Assembly: GCA_030491005.1 (NCBI GenBank)
Contig: JAKZMJ010000031.1
Location: 1-51,922 of the forward strand
Reading direction: 5' to 3'
DNA length: 51,922 nucleotides
Source of the DNA: Sulfurospirillum sp.
Lineage (GTDB): Bacteria; Campylobacterota; Campylobacteria; Campylobacterales; Arcobacteraceae
Part shown: one piece after another, positions 5,111-49,832 of the stretch
How the letters are laid out: each line of letters starts with the position of its first letter
Position numbering within the stretch: position 1 is the stretch's first letter
Notes under the pieces: model-generated
Databases searched by the model: none
What the model was told of the DNA's origin: nothing
Seen by the model: the letters and a program-made list of their open reading frames with translations, nothing else
Made by a program: the position numbers and the translations under genes

Positions 5111-6766
5111 AATCTATATCTCCTAATTGTACACATAATCCATCTTTATTTATACTGCTAAAAGATTTTTTAATAATTGTTTCTTTTTGTGTTTGCCTAA
5201 TTTCATTTAAAACTAACATTTCAGTTTTAAATCCAGCTGTCTCAACAGTTTCTACTCCATATATAAAGTATGGTTTACCTTTTATATAAAACTTTATATT
5301 GTCTATATTGTGCATCAAAAAATCTATATCATTAATTTGTATCTCTTTTATTTGTTTATTATTTTCAATAATTAAATTATCAAAAATAATATTTGTAATT
5401 GGTAAAAAATAATAGTCATTTTTTAATACTAATGGTAAATAATTACTATTATTTTCATTAATAACTTCTTTTATTTTGATTATTGATATAAAATAATTAC
5501 TTAAATTTTTTATAATATCAATATCTTTATCACCTATTTTTATTTTATCGAATTTTATAGATGAAGGATAATTTAATAGCTTTATTTTTATTTGTCTATA
5601 AAAATTTAGTCTCTCAAATTTTATATTCTTACTTTTAATTTTAGTTTCATTTTTTCTTTTATCTAAAAATGTCATTTTAATTTCTGGTTTTAATACTTTA
5701 AAATGTATATTGTTACCATTAAGTTGATTAAATACAAATGTATTATCTTGCTCTTTTAAATGAAATGTATGGATAAGATAACTATCTTCTTGAATAACTT
5801 CATTACTATTTACTTTTATATCTTTACTAGATATTTTAATTTCAATCTTTTTATCATTATCAAACCAATTAAACCATTTTAATATCTTAAACCCATTAAT
5901 ATAGGGCACCTCTAAAAATAGACAAAAAATCACATAATTTTCAAATACTTAGAAAATCATAAAATAAGTCTTTTATTTAATCCAAATAAATTTACAAATA
6001 ACTCTCTATAAAGCTATTATTTAAAGCATTTGATACCACTATTTAGCTATAATTACAACATAAATTATTATAAAAAGTGAGTATATTATGGCAGGATTAT
6101 TTGATTATGAGTTTCAGCTAGAAAAGATTAAAAAGCATCAACCACCTTTACAAAAGTTAAATGAAATTATTGATTGGGAATTATTTAGACAACCTATTGA
6201 AGAATCATTAATGAAAGAAGATAAAAAAAGTAATGCTGGTAGGAAACCATATGATAAACTTTTAATGTTCAAAATAATTATACTTCAAAGATACTACAAT
6301 TTATCGGATGAACAAACAGAGTTTCAAATCAAAGATAGATTATCTTTTATGAATTTTCTAGGTCTCCAAATAGGTGATAATGTACCTGATAGAAATACAA
6401 TTTGGCTATTTAAAGAAGAACTAAAAGAGAAAGATTTATCAAAAAAACTATTTGATATTTTTACTGCTAAACTTTTATCTAATGGTGTTATTGCTAAAGA
6501 GGGAACACTTGTAGACGCTAGCTTCATCAAAGTACCTAAACAAAGAAATAAAAGGCAAGATAATGCTGATATTAAAAAAGGTGCTATTCCTTTAGAGTTT
6601 GGAAAGAATAAAAATAAATTAGCTCAAAAAGATATAGATGCCAGATGGGTTACCAAGTATAAAACTAGAGAATTTGGATATAAAAATCATATATCAGTTG
6701 ATCAAAAAACTAAAGTAATATCTACTTATACTGTAACACCCTCATCAACTCATGATTCACAAGTAA

Positions 6767-7322
6767 ATGATGCTCCACCGACCCAAGGGTACGGGGTATC
6801 TTTTTCTATAAATCAAACTTTAATTGTCCATCATATATTTTGACATATTCTTTTTCATTTGAGCCTTGATTTTTAATATAATTTTTAATTGTATCTTTAC
6901 TTGCGTAGAGTCCAACTGTATTTACATAATATCCACTTGTCCAAAGACTTGAACCCCACATTTCTTTTTTTAATTGAGGAAATTGTTTAAATATCTCTCT
7001 TGCTGTTATACTTTTTATTGTAGTTACTAGTTTAGTTACAGATATTGTTGGTACACTTTGAACTAAAAAATGTACATGATCTTCATCATTACCAATTTCT
7101 ACAAATACAATTTCATATCTTTGAGATATATCAATACATACTTCTCTAAGTTTTTTATCTATTTTATTATCAAATACTTTTTTTCTATATTTAGCTGGAA
7201 ATACCAAATGATATAGTAGTAAAGTCTTATTATGACTTTTATATATATGTTCATCTCTCATATCTCTATTATAGCTAACTTGTTAACGACCCAAGGGTAC
7301 GGGGAATTAACCCTTTTTTAGA
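6767..7322 (-). mobile_element. IS200 element, copy 1
   Basis: The element is 556 bp, with the left end TCTAAAAAAGGG next to TTAA (7323-7326) and the right end finishing GGAGCATCAT in minus orientation. Both ends carry a hairpin with a bulged T (CCG-T-ACCC/GGGT-CGG), typical of the IS200/IS605 recognition structure. There is no target duplication. Confidence 0.9.
6806..7261 (-). CDS. tnpA: IS200-family Y1 transposase TnpA
   Basis: This 151-residue HUH single-strand transposase cuts and joins the element ends as single-stranded DNA. The HUH motif is H62-V-H64 and the catalytic Tyr is probably Y128 in a YxxxQ arrangement (Q132). Its length is usual for IS200 TnpA and no tnpB accompanies it. 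The protein is identical in all four copies in this window, implying recent spread. Confidence 0.95.
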   Translation of the reverse strand: MRDEHIYKSHNKTLLLYHLVFPAKYRKKVFDNKIDKKLREVCIDISQRYEIVFVEIGNDEDHVHFLVQSVPTISVTKLVTTIKSITAREIFKQFPQLKKEMWGSSLWTSGYYVNTVGLYASKDTIKNYIKNQGSNEKEYVKIYDGQLKFDL

Positions 7323-9794: not shown

Positions 9795-10680
9795 TAAATA
9801 TTAAAACTATCTCTAAATGGAAAGATAGGGATTTTATTGAAGATAAAAGTTCAAGACCACATAATATAAAAACAACTTTAACATCTTTAGAAAAAGAGTT
9901 AATAAAAGTAGTTAGGACAATGACTTGGATGGAACTAGATGACCTAGTAGATACAATGGTTGATATTATCCCAAATGCAAATAGAAGTAATATCTATAGA
10001 ACTCTAAAAGCATTTGATATAAATAGAGTCCCACAAGAACAAAAAGAAAAAGCAAAGAAATTTAAAGAATACGAACCTGGATATTTGCATATAGATGTAA
10101 CCTATTTACCAAAGTTTGATAAACAAAAGTTTTATCTATTTGTAGCAATAGACAGAGCTACAAGGCTACTATATTACAAAGTGTATAAAAACAAATCATC
10201 TAATAATGCAGTTGAATTTCTAAAAGTTTGTAAAGAGTTTTTTCCTTTTTACTTAACTCATATTTTAACAGATAATGGATTGGAATTTACAGATAAATGG
10301 GCAAGAGGCAAAGGAATTGTAAGTGGTAATCACAAGTTTGATGTAGAATGTAAAGAAGATAGTATAGAACATAGACTAACAGCTCCATATACACCACAAA
10401 CCAATGGAATGGTAGAAAGAGTAAACGGAACTATTAAAAATGCTACAATCAAAGCCCAAGACTATGAAAATATAGATGATGTTAAAAAAGATTTAAATAA
10501 ATTTTTGATATACTACAACTTCAATAGAAGACATGGTTCTTTAAGAAAAGAATTAAAAGTCAGAACTCCATTTAATGCAGTTCAAAGTTGGTTTCAAACG
10601 AAGCCTGAAATATTTAAGATTTTACCAGATGTGTTTCAAGATATTGTTTTTGGAATGGTACAACGTGGTGAAACTTGACA

Positions 10681-27950: not shown

Positions 27951-28290
27951 CTATATCAAAGTGCTTACACTAGCATCTATAACCAAAACATAGTTTGCAG
28001 TTTGCTTCAAATCTATAATACCATTATCCAAACTAGCAAGACCAGCAATAAACCTAGACATAGTAATATTTTTATTATCATAATCTTTTATAGCACTTAA
28101 AGATGCACCAGCAGTATTAGCAACCTTGTATTTGTTTGCTTCAAGATTAGTATTCGTATTAAATGCAGAATCTTCTGTAGGGAATAGGCCTTTAGCTTTT
28201 GTTTTTCTTTTTATTGTAGCATTTAGAGATTCTATTGGATTTGTAGTATAAATAAGTTTTTTTACAGTTTCTAAATATTTAAAAACATAG
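27951..28290 (-). pseudogene. Chimeric remnant: IS256-type transposase fused to an unknown fragment
   Basis: One open frame reads IYTTNPIESLNATIKRKTKA then KGLFPTEDSAF, the conserved C-terminal region of IS256 (mutator) transposases. Without a stop it continues as ANKYKVANTAGASLSAIKDY and ends at 27951. The second half is not transposase-like and I do not recognise it. No start codon with a ribosome site is evident, so it is probably a recombination scar rather than a gene. Confidence 0.55.
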
Positions 28291-28340
28291 TTTTTAATAT
28301 GACTATAAAATTAGCTTATTTGGGGCTATTTTCACAGTCT
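28291..28340 (+). mobile_element. Right-end remnant of IS-F (IS1182-like)
   Basis: About 50 bases ending TTCACAGTCT are the same as the right ends at 32074 and 45746. The rest of the element is gone. It abuts an attC end exactly as the other copies do. Confidence 0.75.
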
Positions 28341-28357
28341 GAAGGACTTGTTATAGG
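28341..28357 (-). repeat. Partial attC site after the mazF cassette
   Basis: GAAGGACTTGTTATAGG is the gene-proximal end of an attC (minus-strand TAACAAG), only 4 bases from the toxin stop codon. The other arm was replaced by the IS-F remnant. Confidence 0.6.
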
Positions 28358-28961: not shown

Positions 28962-29029
28962 TATTTAATTCATACTTTTATCATACCATAATTATTTAAG
29001 AGTTTGTTTAAGTTTAAGAAATATTGACC

Positions 29030-29161
29030 TATAACGGTCGAAGTGAGGAACACGGCGATTTAACGGCTTGATAATTTACTATTTAAGTATCTTAATGCGA
29101 CACTTAAAAGGTCGCTAAATCGCCGTGGTAGCCTTGTTTCTCCTCCTCTGATTTGTTAGAT
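29030..29161 (-). repeat. attC recombination site
   Basis: It runs from TATAACGGTCG to TTTGTTAGA. Inner arms CACGGCGATTTA and TAAATCGCCGTG are perfect inverted repeats, giving the long imperfect palindrome of an attC folded as single-stranded DNA. It shares long blocks with the sites at 35835 and 38427, like the homogeneous repeats of Vibrio superintegrons. Confidence 0.85.
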
Positions 29162-31132: not shown

Positions 31133-31287
31133 ATATAAACTTTTAAAATATTCCAAAACTTGACATCTAACGCCTGAGTTAAGCGACAAGGTGATATGAC
31201 TCAGTAGAAATTTGGTCTTTTATCTAACTAACTTTAGAAGATAAAAGCTCGGTATTTTCGCAGTATAAACCTTGTTCGATTTCTACC

Positions 31288-32074
31288 AGACGGTAAAAGA
31301 ACTAAATCTCAATTTATATAAAATATTCTATCAAATTTACCCTAAAATCAATATAATTTTAACCATCTTAAAACTACTAAAATGCTATAATATGACAATG
31401 ATTAAAGGGTTTTAATGGGTATATATAAACAAGGATTATCGTGAGCTCAACAACTAATATTTCCACCAAGTTTGGATGAACTTATTGATGAAAATAATAT
31501 GGTAAGAGCTGTTGATAAAGGTTACTATAGTTCAGTAGAGATAAAAAAGTGTGTTGATGATGGTATTGATACTATTGTACCATTAAGAAATACAGCTGTA
31601 TAGATGGGAACATGAATATACTATAAAGATGAATACCAAAGAAGCCAAAGAAATAGTTTAAAAACGAGGCTCAATAGTAGAACATTCATTCGGAACAATA
31701 AAAAGAACTTTAGCTTGGGATCATTTTTTAGTTCGTTCTAAAAAAAAGGTACTTGGAGAAAATGCTTTAATAATGTTTACCTATAATTTTAGAAGACTTT
31801 TAAACCTAATAGGGATAGTTCTGTTCAAAAAACTGTGCTTTCAAGGAAAGTTTGCTACACAACCGCTATTCGCTACTTTTGCCATTAAAAACAAAGATTT
31901 AACCCAAGTAAGAAAAGATATAGAAGAATATATCTTGGTGTTTGGGCTTTTTTTGGTTTATTTTTTAAGATATGTTTTTTATTTCCAAATTTCTTTTGAA
32001 AAGTTACGATATTTTGAAAAATAACTTTTAATATGACTATAAAATTAGCTTATTTGGGGCTATTTTCACAGTCT
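31288..32074 (+). mobile_element. IS-F, IS1182-like element with internal deletion
   Basis: The ends AGACGGTAAAAGAAC and (inverted) AGACTGTGAAAATAGC are similar. The element is only 787 bp and the transposase is internally deleted. No target duplication is evident. The right end matches the remnants at 28340 and 45746. Confidence 0.7.
31415..32024 (+). pseudogene. IS1182-like transposase remnant
   Basis: It begins MGIYKQGLS, then after a stop QQLIFPPSLDELIDENNMVR, typical of IS1182 N-termini. It jumps directly to DKGYYSSVEIKKCVDDGIDT, losing the middle. More stops and frameshifts precede the C-terminal part (VEHSFGTIKRTLAWDH and MFTYNFRRLLNLIG). It is not functional. Confidence 0.8.
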
Positions 32075-32860
32075 GTGTGTTTTGTTAGATGTTTTGTCTA
32101 CTAATTCAGCTGGATTTATTTTAAACTGTAACATATTGGCTGTTTCTCTTCCATTATCTCCACCTTTTCTTTGAATTGTAATATTTCCAATTTTAAAACT
32201 TCCTCTTGGAGTTATTCTTATCTCTCCATTTCCAAAGTGATTCAATACTTTATTAATTGGCTCTAATGCCCAATCAATAGTATCTGTATCTTTTAATCTT
32301 AAAATTACTAACATCCATTCAGCAGAAAACTTTCCTCTACCTTTTAAAATATCATTTACAATTAATGTTTTATTATCATTAAAAAACTTTAAGAAGAGTT
32401 GTTGTTCATCTTTTGAAAATTCATCAGTAAACATTCTTCTTCCATCTCTTGGATTATTAATTTTAGGTTTTTTCTCTCCAGTAAAATACTGTAATAATTC
32501 ATACACATCACTTGGAATATTCCAAAGTTCATTATATTTCTTTAGCCATCTTTTATCAATTTGATTAAATCCTTTTGGATTTGATACAAGTTTTACTTGT
32601 AGATTTTGAATATCGGTTAAGCTTTTTAATTTTACTTCAATTTTTATCTCTACTTGTATATCAGCTTTTAATGAGCCTTTAACTTTTGAAGCTTGTACTC
32701 TTTCAATATCTGTTAAATCATAATCCATAGCTTTTAACCAAAGTTGTGCAAATTCACTCTCTTTCCAATTATTAAATTCTGCTATTGTAAAATCTTCATT
32801 TTTAAAACCATTTTTAGCAGTTTGTGAACCTCTATTTATTAATATTTCTTTTTCTATCAT
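32066..32860 (-). CDS. HinP1I-like type II restriction endonuclease
   Basis: The 264-residue product closely resembles R.HinP1I (GCGC) as I recall it: SQTAKNGFKNE, VKLVSNPKGFNQIDKRWLKKY, RRMFTDEF and a near-identical QRKGGDNGRETANMLQFKI. The PD-(D/E)XK variant site is probably D67, Q88 and K90. The family normally ends soon after this motif. Here the frame runs through the attC end and 9 bases into IS-F (tail SNKTHRL), so the native stop has been lost. Its start overlaps the methyltransferase stop by one base. GCGC specificity is inferred. Confidence 0.85.
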   Translation of the reverse strand: MIEKEILINRGSQTAKNGFKNEDFTIAEFNNWKESEFAQLWLKAMDYDLTDIERVQASKVKGSLKADIQVEIKIEVKLKSLTDIQNLQVKLVSNPKGFNQIDKRWLKKYNELWNIPSDVYELLQYFTGEKKPKINNPRDGRRMFTDEFSKDEQQLFLKFFNDNKTLIVNDILKGRGKFSAEWMLVILRLKDTDTIDWALEPINKVLNHFGNGEIRITPRGSFKIGNITIQRKGGDNGRETANMLQFKINPAELVDKTSNKTHRL

Positions 32861-35778: not shown

Positions 35779-36019
35779 AATTGTCCTACATATATTTCTT
35801 TAATTATATCTAAAAGTTTATTTTAAAGTCATCATCTAACGTCTAAATTGAAGGACGGGGCGATTTAACGGCTTGATTGTTCGGTCTTTCAATTTTCTTA
35901 ATGCGATACTTAAAAGTTCGAAAAATCTCGACTGTAGCCTCGTTCTTCTTCCAAGTCGCCACCTTACAACCTACTGAATTTCTTAATTACAACCAACTAA
36001 ATACACATTAATTTATATT

Positions 36020-36717: not shown

Positions 36718-37005
36718 ACTTAGAACCTCACATATTAATTTATTTGAGAGTTCGTTAGGGTAGGAGTTTTACTCTTACCTGATTTATATAACAACGCTAT
36801 ACTTAATTTTACCTCATGATATTCGATCTAGCAATATATTACCGATCCAGTCGCCACTCAAATTTTTAGTATAACTATCTGACTTGGATTGAAACTAACT
36901 AATCTTATTGTTTAAGAAAACTAGCCGTTTTACGATTTGTCCGATATATTATATTAACTTACTCTGTTATTTATGATAGCTAATTTGCTATGGGTTTATT
37001 ATATG
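36718..37005 (-). ncRNA. IS110 left-end region, candidate bridge RNA (copy 1)
   Basis: These 288 non-coding bases upstream of the IS110 gene are nearly identical to 50169-50457. They contain hairpins, for example GGTAGGAG/CTCTTACC near the gene and ATAGC/GCTAT near the outer end. IS110-group elements encode a bridge RNA in this position that pairs with target and donor DNA. The RNA itself is inferred, not seen. Confidence 0.5.
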
Positions 37006-37088
37006 ACGATTTGTTAGACATCATAGCTGTTTTTACAAATCTTACAATTCCAATACTCCTCACTACAAATACTTTCTTCATCCATTAA

Positions 37089-37710
37089 TCTAAAAAAGGG
37101 TTAATTCCCCGTACCCTTGGGTCGCTAAAAAAGTTAGCTATAATAGAGATATGAGAGATGAACATATATACAAAAGTCATAGGGTATCTATTTTGTCAAG
37201 AGAATATATTTTATTATGAGAGATGAACATATATATAAAAGTCATAATAAGACTTTACTACTATATCATTTGGTATTTCCAGCTAAATATAGAAAAAAAG
37301 TATTTGATAATAAAATAGATAAAAAACTTAGAGAAGTATGTATTGATATATCTCAAAGATATGAAATTGTATTTGTAGAAATTGGTAATGATGAAGATCA
37401 TGTACATTTTTTAGTTCAAAGTGTACCAACAATATCTGTAACTAAACTAGTAACTACAATAAAAAGTATAACAGCAAGAGAGATATTTAAACAATTTCCT
37501 CAATTAAAAAAAGAAATGTGGGGTTCAAGTCTTTGGACAAGTGGATATTATGTAAATACAGTTGGACTCTACGCAAGTAAAGATACAATTAAAAATTATA
37601 TTAAAAATCAAGGCTCAAATGAAAAAGAATATGTCAAAATATATGATGGACAATTAAAGTTTGATTTATAGAAAAAGATACCCCGTACCCTTGGGTCGGT
37701 GGAGCATCAT
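37089..37710 (+). mobile_element. IS200 element, copy 2 (66 bp longer)
   Basis: The ends are as in the other copies, with TTAA at 37085-37088. Its length is 622 bp instead of 556 because the first bases of tnpA (ATGAGAGATGAACATATAT) occur twice, at about 37151 and at 37216, with unrelated sequence between. Confidence 0.9.
37216..37671 (+). CDS. tnpA: IS200-family Y1 transposase TnpA
   Basis: The protein is identical to the 6806 copy (H62-V-H64, Y128). The natural 5' leader is displaced by the extra 66 bp. The partial frame starting at 37151 soon diverges, so expression may differ from the other copies. Confidence 0.95.
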   Translation: MRDEHIYKSHNKTLLLYHLVFPAKYRKKVFDNKIDKKLREVCIDISQRYEIVFVEIGNDEDHVHFLVQSVPTISVTKLVTTIKSITAREIFKQFPQLKKEMWGSSLWTSGYYVNTVGLYASKDTIKNYIKNQGSNEKEYVKIYDGQLKFDL

Positions 37711-38071
37711 TTTTGGAAAATGTTCTAAATGATGATATTTTAAATCTTTTTCAAAACAAACTGTACAAAATGGTGTTTTATCATTTTCTGCCCAATACAT
37801 TTTTCCATCAAATGATATTTTTTCTTTTTTATTAAGTTCTTCTTTTAAATTAAGTATTGTTTGTTCTTTATCTCTTTGTGAAACTTGAACTTCTGAAAGT
37901 TCTATTTTAATATCAGCTAAAGCACTAATTAAGTCTGCCATTTTAAGTTTTATTTCTGCTTCTTCAAGGGAAGTTGTGCTATTTTTAATTAATTTAGCAA
38001 TATCTGTTGCTGTTTTAATGCTTGATAAAATTGTACTGATTTCTGTAATTCCTGTCATGCTAATCCTTTTG

Positions 38072-38203
38072 TATAACGGTTGAAGCAAAGAACAAGTGAC
38101 CCTCAGTCTGTTTGCTAACTTCTTTTTATTACCATTACATTTTAGTTAATTTATGCTTAAAGTTTGATGGGTCACTTGTTTTCTTTCGGTGTTTTGTTGG
38201 GTG
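38072..38203 (-). repeat. attC recombination site
   Basis: It runs from TATAACGGTTGAAG to GTTTTGTTGGGTG, with perfect inner arms AACAAGTGACCC and GGGTCACTTGTT. The central part differs from the 29030-type sites, so it belongs to a second attC subfamily in the array. Confidence 0.85.
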
Positions 38204-38426
38204 CTTTCGTGACTTTAAAGTTTTTTATTTCTTTTATATTTACTAGCGATAGTTAGATATATTTCTAAGTTCTTTAATATTCAAATTATTTTTAATATTT
38301 ATCTTTTCATTGTTTATGAAAGTTTATTTTAAATTAGAAATCTATATAACTATTTTATAGCTTTTTAAGTTGTTGATTCTTTAATAAATATTTTTTATTT
38401 TTTAAAACTTTTTTTTAATGTTGTCA
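38204..38426. other. Geneless integron cassette
   Basis: This is the 223-base interval between two complete attC sites. I find no frame longer than about 15-25 codons with a start on either strand. It could hold a promoter or small RNA, but nothing specific is visible. Confidence 0.55.
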
Positions 38427-38559
38427 CCCAACGACCGAAGTGAGGGACAATGGCGATTTAACGACTTGATTATTTACTCTTTTAAATATCTTAATACGAC
38501 ACTTAAAAGCTCGAATAATCGCCGTTGTAGCCTCGTTCCTCCTCCTCTAATTTGTTATC
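38427..38559 (-). repeat. attC recombination site
   Basis: It runs from CCCAACGACCGAAG to TTTGTTATC. It shares GGCGATTTAACGACTTGAT, TCTTAATACGACACTTAAAAG and CTCGTTCCTCCTCCTC with the 29030 site. Inner arms are CAATGGCGATT and ATCGCCGTTG. Confidence 0.85.
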
Positions 38560-39336
38560 TTTTGTCTTTTCTATTTGTTTAATTTATATTTTTAAATTGC
38601 TGAGCCACTTGCAAATCAGCAAATAAGTTCATAATTTAGGTTTTTATTTGTAAAAAAAGTTGAATCAAATTTCAAATAAGTTATAATTTTATATCCTAAA
38701 ATTTAACAGAAAAGAGATTCAACTTATGAAAAATATTATACCAAAATTATCTTCAAATCTTTCAAAAATGTGGCTTAGGATTATAAACCATGAAAATTGT
38801 TTATTTCCTGAGATAAAAGAACAATTAGGAACACTAAGCACTAAAGAAGAAAAATTAATAAAAATATTAGATTTTGCCCAAATAGAAAAGCATGTTACAA
38901 TTGTAACAATTACAAACACTCCAAAAGATAGAGAAGAAATAGCAAGGGCATTTATTGCTAAATCAGTTTATAATATACAAACAACAAGAGATTTAATTCA
39001 TAGACTGCATAGGGATAGAATATTGCGAGTATTATGTGGATGGAGATATAAAATAGATATTCCTAGTGAATCAAAATTTAGTAGAGTGTTTGAACAACTT
39101 AGTAATATGAAAATAGCTGAGAAAACTCATCAAAAATTCATAGAAGAATATTTGTCAGATACTATATTTATGTATAATGCAAGTGATGCTACAAAAATAC
39201 CACTTAGGGAAAAACCTGTAAAAGTTGAGAAAAAAGAGAAAGTAAAAAATAAAGTTGGAAGACCTAAAAAAGGTGAGAAAAGAGAAGCTATAAAACCAAA
39301 GATTCTTGAACTTCAAAAAGATATGAAAACTACTAA

Positions 39337-42558: not shown

Positions 42559-43114
42559 TCTAAAAAAGGGTTAATTCCCCGTACCCTTGGGTCGTTAACA
42601 AGTTAGCTATAATAGAGATATGAGAGATGAACATATATATAAAAGTCATAATAAGACTTTACTACTATATCATTTGGTATTTCCAGCTAAATATAGAAAA
42701 AAAGTATTTGATAATAAAATAGATAAAAAACTTAGAGAAGTATGTATTGATATATCTCAAAGATATGAAATTGTATTTGTAGAAATTGGTAATGATGAAG
42801 ATCATGTACATTTTTTAGTTCAAAGTGTACCAACAATATCTGTAACTAAACTAGTAACTACAATAAAAAGTATAACAGCAAGAGAGATATTTAAACAATT
42901 TCCTCAATTAAAAAAAGAAATGTGGGGTTCAAGTCTTTGGACAAGTGGATATTATGTAAATACAGTTGGACTCTACGCAAGTAAAGATACAATTAAAAAT
43001 TATATTAAAAATCAAGGCTCAAATGAAAAAGAATATGTCAAAATATATGATGGACAATTAAAGTTTGATTTATAGAAAAAGATACCCCGTACCCTTGGGT
43101 CGGTGGAGCATCAT
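42559..43114 (+). mobile_element. IS200 element, copy 3
   Basis: The element is 556 bp, inserted in the 3' non-coding end of IS-A copy 3 after CCATTAA. Other IS-A copies read CCATTGA here, so the target either carried a G-to-A change or was altered on insertion. Confidence 0.92.
42620..43075 (+). CDS. tnpA: IS200-family Y1 transposase TnpA
   Basis: The 151 residues are identical to the other three copies (H62-V-H64, Y128/Q132). The leader GTTAACAAGTTAGCTATAAT upstream is the shared promoter-like region. Confidence 0.95.
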   Translation: MRDEHIYKSHNKTLLLYHLVFPAKYRKKVFDNKIDKKLREVCIDISQRYEIVFVEIGNDEDHVHFLVQSVPTISVTKLVTTIKSITAREIFKQFPQLKKEMWGSSLWTSGYYVNTVGLYASKDTIKNYIKNQGSNEKEYVKIYDGQLKFDL

Positions 43115-43319: not shown

Positions 43320-43875
43320 TCTAAAAAAGGGTTAATTCCCCGTACCCTTGGGTCGTTAACAAGTTAGCTATAATAGAGATATGAGAGATGAACATATATA
43401 TAAAAGTCATAATAAGACTTTACTACTATATCATTTGGTATTTCCAGCTAAATATAGAAAAAAAGTATTTGATAATAAAATAGATAAAAAACTTAGAGAA
43501 GTATGTATTGATATATCTCAAAGATATGAAATTGTATTTGTAGAAATTGGTAATGATGAAGATCATGTACATTTTTTAGTTCAAAGTGTACCAACAATAT
43601 CTGTAACTAAACTAGTAACTACAATAAAAAGTATAACAGCAAGAGAGATATTTAAACAATTTCCTCAATTAAAAAAAGAAATGTGGGGTTCAAGTCTTTG
43701 GACAAGTGGATATTATGTAAATACAGTTGGACTCTACGCAAGTAAAGATACAATTAAAAATTATATTAAAAATCAAGGCTCAAATGAAAAAGAATATGTC
43801 AAAATATATGATGGACAATTAAAGTTTGATTTATAGAAAAAGATACCCCGTACCCTTGGGTCGGTGGAGCATCAT
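43320..43875 (+). mobile_element. IS200 element, copy 4
   Basis: The element is 556 bp, between IS-A copy 3 and the exporter gene, with TTAA at 43316-43319. It lies in the short spacer between the exporter stop codon and the attC at 38427, in tandem orientation with copy 3. Confidence 0.92.
43381..43836 (+). CDS. tnpA: IS200-family Y1 transposase TnpA
   Basis: The protein is identical to copies 1-3 and intact, with the same ends and leader. Four identical proteins within 37 kb point to current or very recent activity. Confidence 0.95.
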   Translation: MRDEHIYKSHNKTLLLYHLVFPAKYRKKVFDNKIDKKLREVCIDISQRYEIVFVEIGNDEDHVHFLVQSVPTISVTKLVTTIKSITAREIFKQFPQLKKEMWGSSLWTSGYYVNTVGLYASKDTIKNYIKNQGSNEKEYVKIYDGQLKFDL

Positions 43876-44493: not shown

Positions 44494-44510
44494 ATTTTTT
44501 CCTTTTTTAA

Positions 44511-44640
44511 GATAACGGCAAAATTGAAAAATAAGGGAGTATAACTAAGTGAAAGTTTGGTCTTTAATATCTCTTCATTTATAAGATAAAAGCTTATGAA
44601 TTTCGAATGTTACCTTGTTTTTTTCCAATAAATTGTTATG
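44511..44640 (-). repeat. attC recombination site
   Basis: It runs from GATAACGGCAAAATTG to AAATTGTTATG. Inner arms AAAATAAGG and CCTTGTTTTT pair. The central block TTTGGTCTTTAATATCTC is shared in part with the 31166 site. Confidence 0.75.
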
Positions 44641-44659
44641 CTTGAATTACCATAAAAGC

Positions 44660-45449: not shown

Positions 45450-45746
45450 AATATAATTTTAGAAGACTTTTAAACCTAATAGGGATAGTTTTGTTCAAAA
45501 AACTGTGCTTTCAAGGAAAGTTTGCTACACAACCGCTATTCGCTACTTTTGCCATTAAAAACAAAGATTTAACTCAAATAAGGAAAGATATAGAAGAATA
45601 TATCTTGGTGTTTGGGCTTTATTTGGTTTATTTTTTAAGATATGTATTTTATTTCCAAATTTCTTTTGAAAAGTTACGATATATTTAAAAAAATAGTTTT
45701 TAATATGACTATAAAATTAGCTTATCTGGGGCTATTTTCACAGTCT
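45450..45746 (+). mobile_element. IS-F 3' remnant
   Basis: About 297 bases nearly identical to 31780-32074 include the C-terminal coding tail (KKLCFQGKFATQPLFATFAI) and the right end CACAGTCT. The 5' part is missing. Confidence 0.85.
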
Positions 45747-45762
45747 TAACGATTTGTTAGAC
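45747..45762 (-). repeat. Partial attC abutting the IS-F remnant
   Basis: TAACGATTTGTTAGAC is the gene-proximal end of an attC, 12 bases from the stop of the next gene. The distal arm has been replaced by IS-F sequence. Confidence 0.6.
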
Positions 45763-46489: not shown

Positions 46490-46619
46490 GTCTAACGACT
46501 GTCTTGAGGGACAAGTGAACTAACGATTTAATAAATTTATCTTTCAATTTTACCTATTCGATACTTATAATCTTGAATTATCCGCAGTTTTAACTTGTTC
46601 CTCTCCTAGTAATTGTTAT
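46490..46619 (-). repeat. attC recombination site
   Basis: It runs from GTCTAACGACTGTC to TAATTGTTATA. Inner arms are GAGGGACAAGT and ACTTGTTCCTC. The stop codon of the decarboxylase gene overlaps its core (TATAAC on the minus strand), as is common in compact cassettes. Confidence 0.8.
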
Positions 46620-47830
46620 ACATTATTGTCTTGTAATATTTTCTTCAAACTAGAAATTATTTCATCAATATTTGCCAAAGGATTAACTGCAACTGAACGA
46701 ATCCACAATTTATCATCAAGAATACATGTTGAAAACATTCCTTGCGGTAATTGTTTAAAGAATCTTTCTGTAGTACAATTTAGCGGACGAAATATAGTAA
46801 TAGCTGTTTGTGGAACTTCTAAAACTGATATATTTTTTTCTTTTGTAAGTTCTTCATAAAGCTTATTTGACATATTGATTGAATGCTCTATAAGCTCTAC
46901 AATTCCATCTTTACCAAATGCAATTAATGTAGCTAGTAGAGGTATAGCACTTGCACCTCGAGAACCTTGAACACCTACATTTGGAGTTGTTAGATAACTT
47001 CCACCAAAACTTATTGCTTCATTTGAAGTTTTTATATCTTTAAATAAAACCAATGCAGAATCTTTAGGCTGAAAAAACCATTTATGTGTTGAAATAGAGA
47101 TTGAATCAGCATTTTGGATATTGTCAAGTAATTTAGAATATTTTGAACTTAATCTTAATGGAGCTGCCCAAGCTCCATCTACATGTGTCCACTTTGCTTT
47201 TCCAATAAGTTTTAAAGAATCTATTGCTCCACTTGTTGTTGTTCCTGCTGTTAAAACTAAACAGGCACTTGATAAATCTCCAAGTTTTTCTGAATCTATT
47301 TGACCTTTCGAATTAGTTGGTACTTTTCTAAATTTTAGTCCAAGAATTTTGGCTGCTTTTTCTACACTTAAATGAGCTGATTGTGAAGTGACAACTTCTA
47401 TAATATTTTTAGAATCTCTAGCAACCCAAATCGCTGTTAGATTTGCTATAGTTGACCCTGAACACATATGACCACCTTCCATACCAAAAAAAGGTATTAA
47501 CCACTTAATAACTAATTTTTCAGCTTCAGTTGCAAATGGAGATACTGCTGGATGTAAAAGATTTTGATTTAGTCTTGCATTCCATAAAGCCATTGCCCAT
47601 GTTATCCAAGGAGTTGGTGGATCCATATGTGCTAAAGCATTTTGTGAATCTAAATAAGAAGCATTACCTAGAACATGTGGGGCTAATAAATTTAAAGTAT
47701 TTATTTCTCCAATACCTTCATTTGGACAATTATTTGGTAAATTATTTTGATTTGAATTAACTTTATTGAGTAACTTTAAAGCATATTCTAAATCGGGTGT
47801 ATTACTAAAACTTGTTTCTTTATCTATCAT
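46616..47830 (-). CDS. Group II PLP-dependent decarboxylase (cassette gene)
   Basis: This 404-residue enzyme belongs to the aromatic-amino-acid/glutamate/diaminobutyrate decarboxylase fold. The PLP Lys is K250 in SISTHKWFF, the ring-stacking His is H153, and the Asp contacting the pyridine N is D218 in THVDGAW. GSTIANLTAIWVAR binds the phosphate. It is shorter than typical 450-500 residue members. Substrate cannot be read from sequence. An enzyme this size is large for a single cassette. Confidence 0.88.
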   Translation of the reverse strand: MIDKETSFSNTPDLEYALKLLNKVNSNQNNLPNNCPNEGIGEINTLNLLAPHVLGNASYLDSQNALAHMDPPTPWITWAMALWNARLNQNLLHPAVSPFATEAEKLVIKWLIPFFGMEGGHMCSGSTIANLTAIWVARDSKNIIEVVTSQSAHLSVEKAAKILGLKFRKVPTNSKGQIDSEKLGDLSSACLVLTAGTTTSGAIDSLKLIGKAKWTHVDGAWAAPLRLSSKYSKLLDNIQNADSISISTHKWFFQPKDSALVLFKDIKTSNEAISFGGSYLTTPNVGVQGSRGASAIPLLATLIAFGKDGIVELIEHSINMSNKLYEELTKEKNISVLEVPQTAITIFRPLNCTTERFFKQLPQGMFSTCILDDKLWIRSVAVNPLANIDEIISSLKKILQDNNV

Positions 47831-48740
47831 TTATTTGTTCCTTTGTATAACGCCTGACTTGAGAAACAAGTGGATTTAACGACTTGAAACTTTTGTCTTT
47901 ATATTCTATTTAATCGACATTTAAAAGCTCGAAAAATCGTACTTTCCACTTGTTCTTCTTACAAGTCGCCACCTTAAAACCTACTGAATTTCTTAATTAC
48001 AACCAACTAAATACACATTAATTTATATTTTAAGTAATAATACCATTTTTATCACATTTCACACTATATTTACCACAAGCTTTTTCATAAACTTCTGCAT
48101 TATAAATACAATTATTTTTATAAAGTGAATGAGCAATAACTATTAATTTTCTTATTACTGCTATTTGTGCTACAGTCGAATGTTTACCATTATCTTTTAA
48201 TCTATCGTAAAAGTTTTTCATTTGTTCATTATATTTTATTGCTACCATTGTAGCCATAAATAAGCTTCCTCTATAAAGTTTTATACCTTCTTTGGATATT
48301 CTAGGTTTTGATTTAACTGATTTGCCTGAGTCTTTAATAATAGGGTCAAGTCCAGTCAAAGATACAATTTGACTTTTATTTGCTTTGGGGTAACTAATAA
48401 ATAGATGAACTAATACAATACCTGCAATCTTACTGATTCCTAGAATTGTTTGTATATTTGTATATGCAGTTGATAGCTTATCATCTGCTTCTATAATCTC
48501 TTTTATCTTCTCTAAAATTTTAATCTCTTCTTCTTTAAAGGATTTTAATCTTTTAGTTATATCTCTAAGAGTATATTTATTACCACCCTTACAACTTAGG
48601 GCTTCATTATGATTACCTAGTGCTACTCTTTGTTTTACAGTAAACTTATAAAACTAATTTTGCTTTAAAACTTGCTGTGTATGTTGTTCTTTTTCTACTC
48701 ATGGTATATTATCCTCTTTTCTTATCTTTATATTGTATAT

Positions 48741-49832
48741 TGTCCAGTTTCACCACGTTATGGTTGCCTAGTTTCATAAATAAGAAAGTGATAGATTAAA
48801 CAACATAAGTGTAAAATCTTTACAACACATAAGGATTTAAAATATGTCACAAACCTATCACTCTAATGCTAGAACAAACCAGCACATAAGAGAAATAATA
48901 CAGAAATCTAATTTAACAAATGTTGAATTAGCAAATAATTATAATCTAAATATTAAAACTATCTCTAAATGGAAAGATAGGGATTTTATTGAAGATAAAA
49001 GTTCAAGACCACATAATATAAAAACAACTTTAACATCTTTAGAAAAAGAGTTAATAAAAGTAGTTAGGACAATGACTTGGATGGAACTAGATGACCTAGT
49101 AGATACAATGGTTGATATTATCCCAAATGCAAATAGAAGTAATATCTATAGAACTCTAAAAGCATTTGATATAAATAGAGTCCCACAAGAACAAAAAGAA
49201 AAAGCAAAGAAATTTAAAGAATACGAACCTGGATATTTGCATATAGATGTAACCTATTTACCAAAGTTTGATAAACAAAAGTTTTATCTATTTGTAGCAA
49301 TAGACAGAGCTACAAGGCTACTATATTACAAAGTGTATAAAAACAAATCATCTAATAATGCAGTTGAATTTCTAAAAGTTTGTAAAGAGTTTTTTCCTTT
49401 TTACTTAACTCATATTTTAACAGATAATGGATTGGAATTTACAGATAAATGGGCAAGAGGCAAAGGAATTGTAAGTGGTAATCACAAGTTTGATGTAGAA
49501 TGTAAAGAAGATAGTATAGAACATAGACTAACAGCTCCATATACACCACAAACCAATGGAATGGTAGAAAGAGTAAACGGAACTATTAAAAATGCTACAA
49601 TCAAAGCCCAAGACTATGAAAATATAGATGATGTTAAAAAAGATTTAAATAAATTTTTGATATACTACAACTTCAATAGAAGACATGGTTCTTTAAGAAA
49701 AGAATTAAAAGTCAGAACTCCATTTAATGCAGTTCAAAGTTGGTTTCAAACGAAGCCTGAAATATTTAAGATTTTACCAGATGTGTTTCAAGATATTGTT
49801 TTTGGAATGGTACAACGTGGTGAAACTTGACA
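48741..49832 (+). mobile_element. IS-B (IS481 family), copy 2, complete
   Basis: The element is 1092 bp, from TGTCCAGTTTCACC to GGTGAAACTTGACA, with target duplication GTATAT at 48735-48740 and 49833-49838. Confidence 0.95.
48844..49830 (+). CDS. IS481-family transposase
   Basis: The 328-residue integrase-core transposase has an N-terminal HTH (NVELANNYNLNIKTISKWKD) and an rve domain with catalytic regions HIDVTYLPKF, LTDNGLEFTDKW and TPQTNGMVERVNGTIKN. It is intact, with ribosome site AAGGAT. The C-terminus reaches the end of the element. Confidence 0.95.
   Translation: MSQTYHSNARTNQHIREIIQKSNLTNVELANNYNLNIKTISKWKDRDFIEDKSSRPHNIKTTLTSLEKELIKVVRTMTWMELDDLVDTMVDIIPNANRSNIYRTLKAFDINRVPQEQKEKAKKFKEYEPGYLHIDVTYLPKFDKQKFYLFVAIDRATRLLYYKVYKNKSSNNAVEFLKVCKEFFPFYLTHILTDNGLEFTDKWARGKGIVSGNHKFDVECKEDSIEHRLTAPYTPQTNGMVERVNGTIKNATIKAQDYENIDDVKKDLNKFLIYYNFNRRHGSLRKELKVRTPFNAVQSWFQTKPEIFKILPDVFQDIVFGMVQRGET

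Follow-up and report, generated by a model that had tools for sequence, protein, structure and literature searches.

Probable specialisation of an IS1182-family DDE insertion sequence clade on integron attC sites in Campylobacterota

IS1272, a member of the IS1182 family, inserts at stem-loops, which it replaces (PMC4923244, PMC5678879). The attC sites of integrons are invaded by IS1111-attC elements and by group IIC introns (PMC11187229, PMC9229058, PMC7923331); for the former, PMC11187229 cites Tetu and Holmes 2008 and Post and Hall 2009, together with ISKpn4 and ISPst6. Here we have analysed contig JAKZMJ010000031.1 of a Sulfurospirillum sp. assembly (GCA_030491005.1), a stretch of 51,922 nucleotides called the window throughout, which carries copies of an IS1182-like insertion sequence (IS) with a DDE transposase next to attC sites. 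With a probability of roughly 0.9, this element belongs, in decayed form, to a Campylobacterota clade of IS1182-family DDE elements specialised on integron attC. Genomes, contigs and loci are labelled G, C and L; the source genome is G000 (33 contigs) and the window is its contig 31 (C31).

The element shares with IS1272 its transposase family (NF033551; Pfam DUF772 and DDE_Tnp_1_6) and a preference for palindromic or structured targets (PMC4923244, PMC5678879). In contrast to IS1272, the attC clade keeps the stem-loop; it inserts at one base position of attC, nearly always in one orientation, and duplicates 5 bp. The IS1111-attC group also uses one end of attC, and the present element is alike in effect without being a member. 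In IS1111/IS110 elements, a seekRNA guides a DEDD transposase, and the IS1111-attC group has subterminal inverted repeats, whereas the present element combines an unrelated DDE transposase (DDE_Tnp domains) with terminal inverted repeats and duplicates its target. Group IIC-attC introns likewise insert at attC (PMC9229058, PMC7923331); unlike the present element, they are RNA-based retroelements with neither transposase nor terminal inverted repeats. In the literature searched, we found no description of an attC-specific element of the IS1182 family or of another DDE type, which is no proof of absence since subscription journals were mostly outside its coverage. Hairpin targeting by IS1182 relatives (IS1272) was already known, and what appears new is the targeting of attC by an IS1182-family DDE element.

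Copies of the element in the window and the source genome

The window contains the right end CACAGTCT at 28333-28340, 32067-32074 and 45739-45746, always on the + strand; 0.64 occurrences are expected, and 1 of 100 shuffles reached three. The original prediction, made from the letters alone, stated that this end adjoins an attC R'' end at 28340, 32074 and 45746, and the flanks that it quoted were correct (Table 1). In the attCs of this array the R'' end reads TTGTTA(G/T), and the array is reversed in the window, with genes mostly on the minus strand, R' at the left and R'' at the right. A covariance model (R1), built solely from the five uninterrupted attCs of the window (132-135 bp each), matched the left flank of the copy at 31288. 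This copy measures 787 bp, compared with ~1.75 kb for intact relatives, to which its transposase fragment is 67-71% identical; the other two are relics with the left side cut off. The insertion point lies in the spacer beside R'', not at the palindrome centre. Two further model matches extend into IS110-type ends, which bears out, to within a few bases, the proposal that both kinds of element use the same slot.

The G000 assembly is partly redundant (C2/C23, C9/C27 and C1/C12 share stretches). A homology search of this genome found the right end in 17 places, or 14 once the sequence repeated in these contig pairs is counted singly, 11 of them beyond the three of the window. TTGTTA stands exactly 7 nt past the right end in 12 of the 14 (13 with at most one mismatch, all 14 with at most two), the two non-exact ends reading TTATTA and TTCTCA. 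With a background of 6.9e-4 per position, the probability of at least 12 exact occurrences in 14 at that offset is ~1e-36. Model R1 gave 32 matches over G000 at E <= 0.1, on several contigs, and the four left ends found were all inside such matches (Table 1). Hence, the left ends fall in the left portion of an attC, whereas the right ends stand at the R'' end.

Most of the G000 relics retain just the right 32-450 bp, and homology searches found no intact copy in this genome. Surviving ends are unequal in number (14 distinct right ends, four left ends); rightward deletions would take the end of the cassette gene, which may be a cause of the rarity of left ends. A 40-bp remnant (AGACTATAAAATTAGC...CACAGTCT; L020, G000:C15:491251-491290) sits between two outward-facing R''-like ends, GCATAACAAAACCACCC and GGACGATTTGTTAGTC, as if it were a tiny internally deleted copy.

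The genome contains integrase-like genes and many attCs, and the copies could have travelled with the cassettes, one IS-bearing attC having been multiplied by the integrase or by duplication. We regard this as extremely improbable, since the bases beside each end, the cassette sequences and the truncation points all differ, the same slot is used in different genera with different attCs, and empty sites with a single copy of the target pentamer exist. We have also looked for a single duplicated insertion behind the three window sites. Flanks and truncation points differ among the copies, which are therefore not duplicates of one insertion.

Table 1. Features of the window and left ends of the element in G000 (window positions, unless a contig is named)
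Feature	Position	Strand	Evidence or remark
IS1182-like element, internally deleted relic	31288..32074	+	ends: AGACGGTAAAAG (left), TTTTCACAGTCT (right)
attC left part: R' box TCTAACG, stem, loop; left of this relic	31165..31287	+	attC model R1 match 31165-31298, E 3e-7
Remainder of the attC broken by this relic (spacer GTGTGTT, R'' box TTGTTAGAT)	32075..32090	+	
Relic with only the right 66 bp of the IS1182-like element	28275..28340	+	92% identity to query end
attC R'' end GAAGGACTTGTTATAG	28341..28356	+	directly right of the 28275-28340 relic
Relic with the right 295 bp of the IS1182-like element	45452..45746	+	96% identity
attC R'' end TAACGATTTGTTAGAC	45747..45762	+	directly right of the 45452-45746 relic
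Uninterrupted attC	29029..29161	+	sequence and attC model
Uninterrupted attC	38071..38202	+	sequence and attC model
Uninterrupted attC	38426..38560	+	sequence and attC model
Uninterrupted attC	44510..44641	+	sequence and attC model
Uninterrupted attC	46490..46621	+	sequence and attC model
attC left part broken by IS110-type element (begins GTCGCCACC)	35834..35954	+	attC model match 35834-35964; R'' end ~37005-37019
Second attC broken at about the same slot by IS110-type element (GTCGCCACC)	47845..47966	+	attC model match 47845-47974
Left end of IS1182-like copy	C31:31288		attC-model match 31165-31298, E 8e-6 in the genome-wide run
Left end of IS1182-like copy	C5:10114		attC-model match 10103-10236, E 4e-11
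Left end of IS1182-like copy	C30:208613		attC-model match 208490-208624, E 4e-11
Left end of IS1182-like copy	C32:49228		attC-model match 49224-49349, E 0.015, weak

Relatives, empty sites and target duplication

We have scanned named genomes with the transposase of locus L116 and found copies in Sulfurimonas, Sulfurovum and other Campylobacterota, several of them full length (1731-1793 bp). The right end followed by N7-TTGTTA was also present in G077, G082 (three), G013, G108 and G109, which belong to the same family as the source. In the loci of the genome scan, N7-TTGTTA follows each of the 19 right ends that belong to the clade and, beyond the source genome, nearly all ends of this transposase clade lie within attC in other Campylobacterota. 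A predominance of copies outside attC was looked for and not seen, either here or among the 14 G000 ends, and the attC preference proposed for this DDE element holds across the clade. Overall, the R'' side carries an exact TTGTTA in 36 of 38 ends. Two-ended copies have R' box, stem and CNNNG in the left flank and CNNNG (or a variant)-NN-TTGTTA in the right flank; the joined flanks give R' (AAC box)-stem-CNNNG-NN-TTGTTA. At the insertions the whole attC is ~53-135 nt long, with arms that vary widely in sequence and length. Most of the joined sites have a strong predicted fold, some a weak one (L182, L184, L207). A simple attC finder was too noisy on these loci and was not used for counts.

A plasmid collection yielded only relatives of <60% identity, and none of the four regions examined there looked like attC; a pattern scan of viral contigs gave one match, not clearly related. 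At L141 (also labelled L049; G031:C34), >50 bp of the target are present again, inverted, beside the IS, either as a real inverted duplication or as an assembly artefact.

It is general knowledge that attCs do not code and that insertions into cassette arrays are tolerated. An element inserting everywhere and persisting only in such DNA would be very unlikely to give the pattern seen, with its fixed base position, its strong orientation bias and no copies at ordinary intergenic sites; moreover, a related hairpin-loop clade of the same phylum persists outside attC. Such survivor bias is contradicted because the insertion is precise to the base.

The flanks of two complete copies, L149 and L134, joined after removing the IS and one pentamer, were used as queries for empty sites. 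They matched uninterrupted attCs in 54 of 397 genomes for L149 and 59 of 397 for L134, counts that include a minority of matches covering one flank only. The inspected alignments cross the junction (TATTGGCTACTCTGTTTTGTTAGG in L217, 95%; CTCTCCAAGGTTTTGTTAGACTTT in L257, 94%), and in L254 a 192-bp match without the IS reaches past attC. Since empty sites match through the junction, the 5 bp CTCTG (L149) and CAAGG (L134) were exactly duplicated upon insertion and nothing was deleted.

These sites also bear on an insertion in the manner of IS1272, with the stem-loop replaced and no target duplication. IS1272 is itself an IS1182-family element that targets and replaces stem-loops (PMC4923244, PMC5678879), yet this mode has very little to recommend it here: the whole attC is kept around the element, and L149 and L134 show the duplication with matching empty sites. 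For the attC clade, the empty sites rule out stem-loop replacement.

Transposase family and target recognition

An intact member of the clade (L133) scored 381 bits against a cut-off of 270 for NCBIfam NF033551 (IS1182 family). In the alignment, the catalytic residues are conserved, with D144 and D287 invariant and E422 present in all Campylobacterota rows. The terminal inverted repeats (AGACTGTGAAA...TTCACAGTCT) and the length of the longest copies fit the IS1182 element size of ~1.6-1.8 kb. Judged by its sequence, the element is an IS1182-family DDE insertion sequence, in agreement with the original prediction. An AlphaFold model of L133 (mean pLDDT 58) was not used.

In a maximum likelihood tree of 35 transposases, one clade with support 100/100 unites the eleven transposases of the first kind of attC user (attC_A), and the attC_A label requires 1 change, versus 9.6 in shuffles. 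A second clade (L150, L157, L188; support 100/98) uses attC in both orientations and has near it three relatives at a TAACAA-like site. The remaining Campylobacterota rows fall among hairpin-loop inserters, of which L138, L140, L143 and L144 have an unbroken 8-12 bp stem and a 6-nt loop, CTGGAG or CTCCTG, that is exactly duplicated.

Loop insertion extends beyond Campylobacterota: on plasmid pNY5085-IMP, an IS1182-family copy (L262) interrupts an 11-bp hairpin within its 4-nt loop, GGTA, which is duplicated. Bacillota copies of the family (L155, L163, L168, L172, L180, and by flank sequence L156 and L164) share the flank type ACCGCCGTATACCGAACGG/ACGTACGGTGGTGTGAGAGG, and in five Bacillota loci a group II intron RNA (RF02001) lies ~1.5 kb from such copies; another IS1182 lineage may favour a hairpin of a group II intron.

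Because the sister clades insert in hairpin loops, a folded attC or cruciform is a plausible target. We tentatively propose, by analogy, that the DDE transposase might directly recognise attC in its folded form, as a single-stranded hairpin or a cruciform, with asymmetric insertion into the unpaired spacer beside R''. Insertion takes place in the R''-L'' spacer, at the pentamer CNNNG two bases before TTGTTA; it duplicates 5 bp, deletes nothing and almost always sets the right end beside R''. Cassette arrays would be used since they supply many equivalent non-coding sites. Fold recognition is favoured by the hairpin targets of the sister clades and of IS1272, and by the high variability of the attC arms in sequence and length.

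Alternatively, the transposase could read the R'' box (CNNNGNNTTGTTA) as a linear motif in double-stranded DNA, with attC serving only as motif carrier and its fold being irrelevant. The strictness of TTGTTA on the R'' side is compatible with this, as is the exact 5-bp duplication, the outcome of an ordinary staggered cut in duplex DNA. However, the motif GNTTTGTTAKRY is found 47 times in G000, many of them where the attC model is silent, and we found no copy there without attC features. In addition, all left ends lie in the variable attC arms, and the sister clades use hairpins. We therefore consider a purely linear signal unlikely, although it deserves to be kept in view.

Several observations weigh against the proposed specialisation or its fold-reading part. 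The window copies are without a working transposase and look inactive, and most of the records are metagenome assemblies. An additional sample fits the attC pattern of the relatives, but one clade member in it (L235) is reversed. Only 2 of the 12 two-ended attC_A copies compared carry a perfect 5-bp duplication; the pentamers of the others are mostly unlike at 1-3 inner bases (23 of 36 match, permutation p 0.06). Such inexact duplication needs an explanation, and the mismatches would arise by mutation or by recombination between copies in different attCs. As to the fold, the strict R'' side suggests that its sequence could be what is read, the 47 motif occurrences are few, and a 5-bp duplication shows staggered joining only, which a duplex target would give as well.

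The integron of the source genome and the meaning of the insertions

Integron integrase genes of G000 score above the family cut-off (C15:4807-5736, C2:166389-167318 and C23:29443-30372), each with 1-2 reported internal stop codons, and the integron looks decayed. The window also carries a 151-aa open reading frame in four near-identical copies with conserved ends (GGGTTAATTCCCCGTACCCTTGGGTCG; 6765-7262, 37215-37671, 42620-43075 and 43381-43836), possibly an IS200/IS605-type element.

Insertions at the R'' spacer should break attC and may thus freeze cassettes; the G000 integron holds many such relics along with the integrase genes interrupted by stop codons. A DDE lineage found at the same few bases as other attC invaders points to convergence on one vulnerable spot. 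The natural series from hairpin loops, through attC in both orientations, to attC in one orientation offers a way to find the part of the IS1182 transposase that would read DNA shape. If the fold is indeed what is read, a plain DDE enzyme would join the integrase, the RNA-guided IS1111 elements and the group IIC introns among the unrelated machineries that recognise attC.
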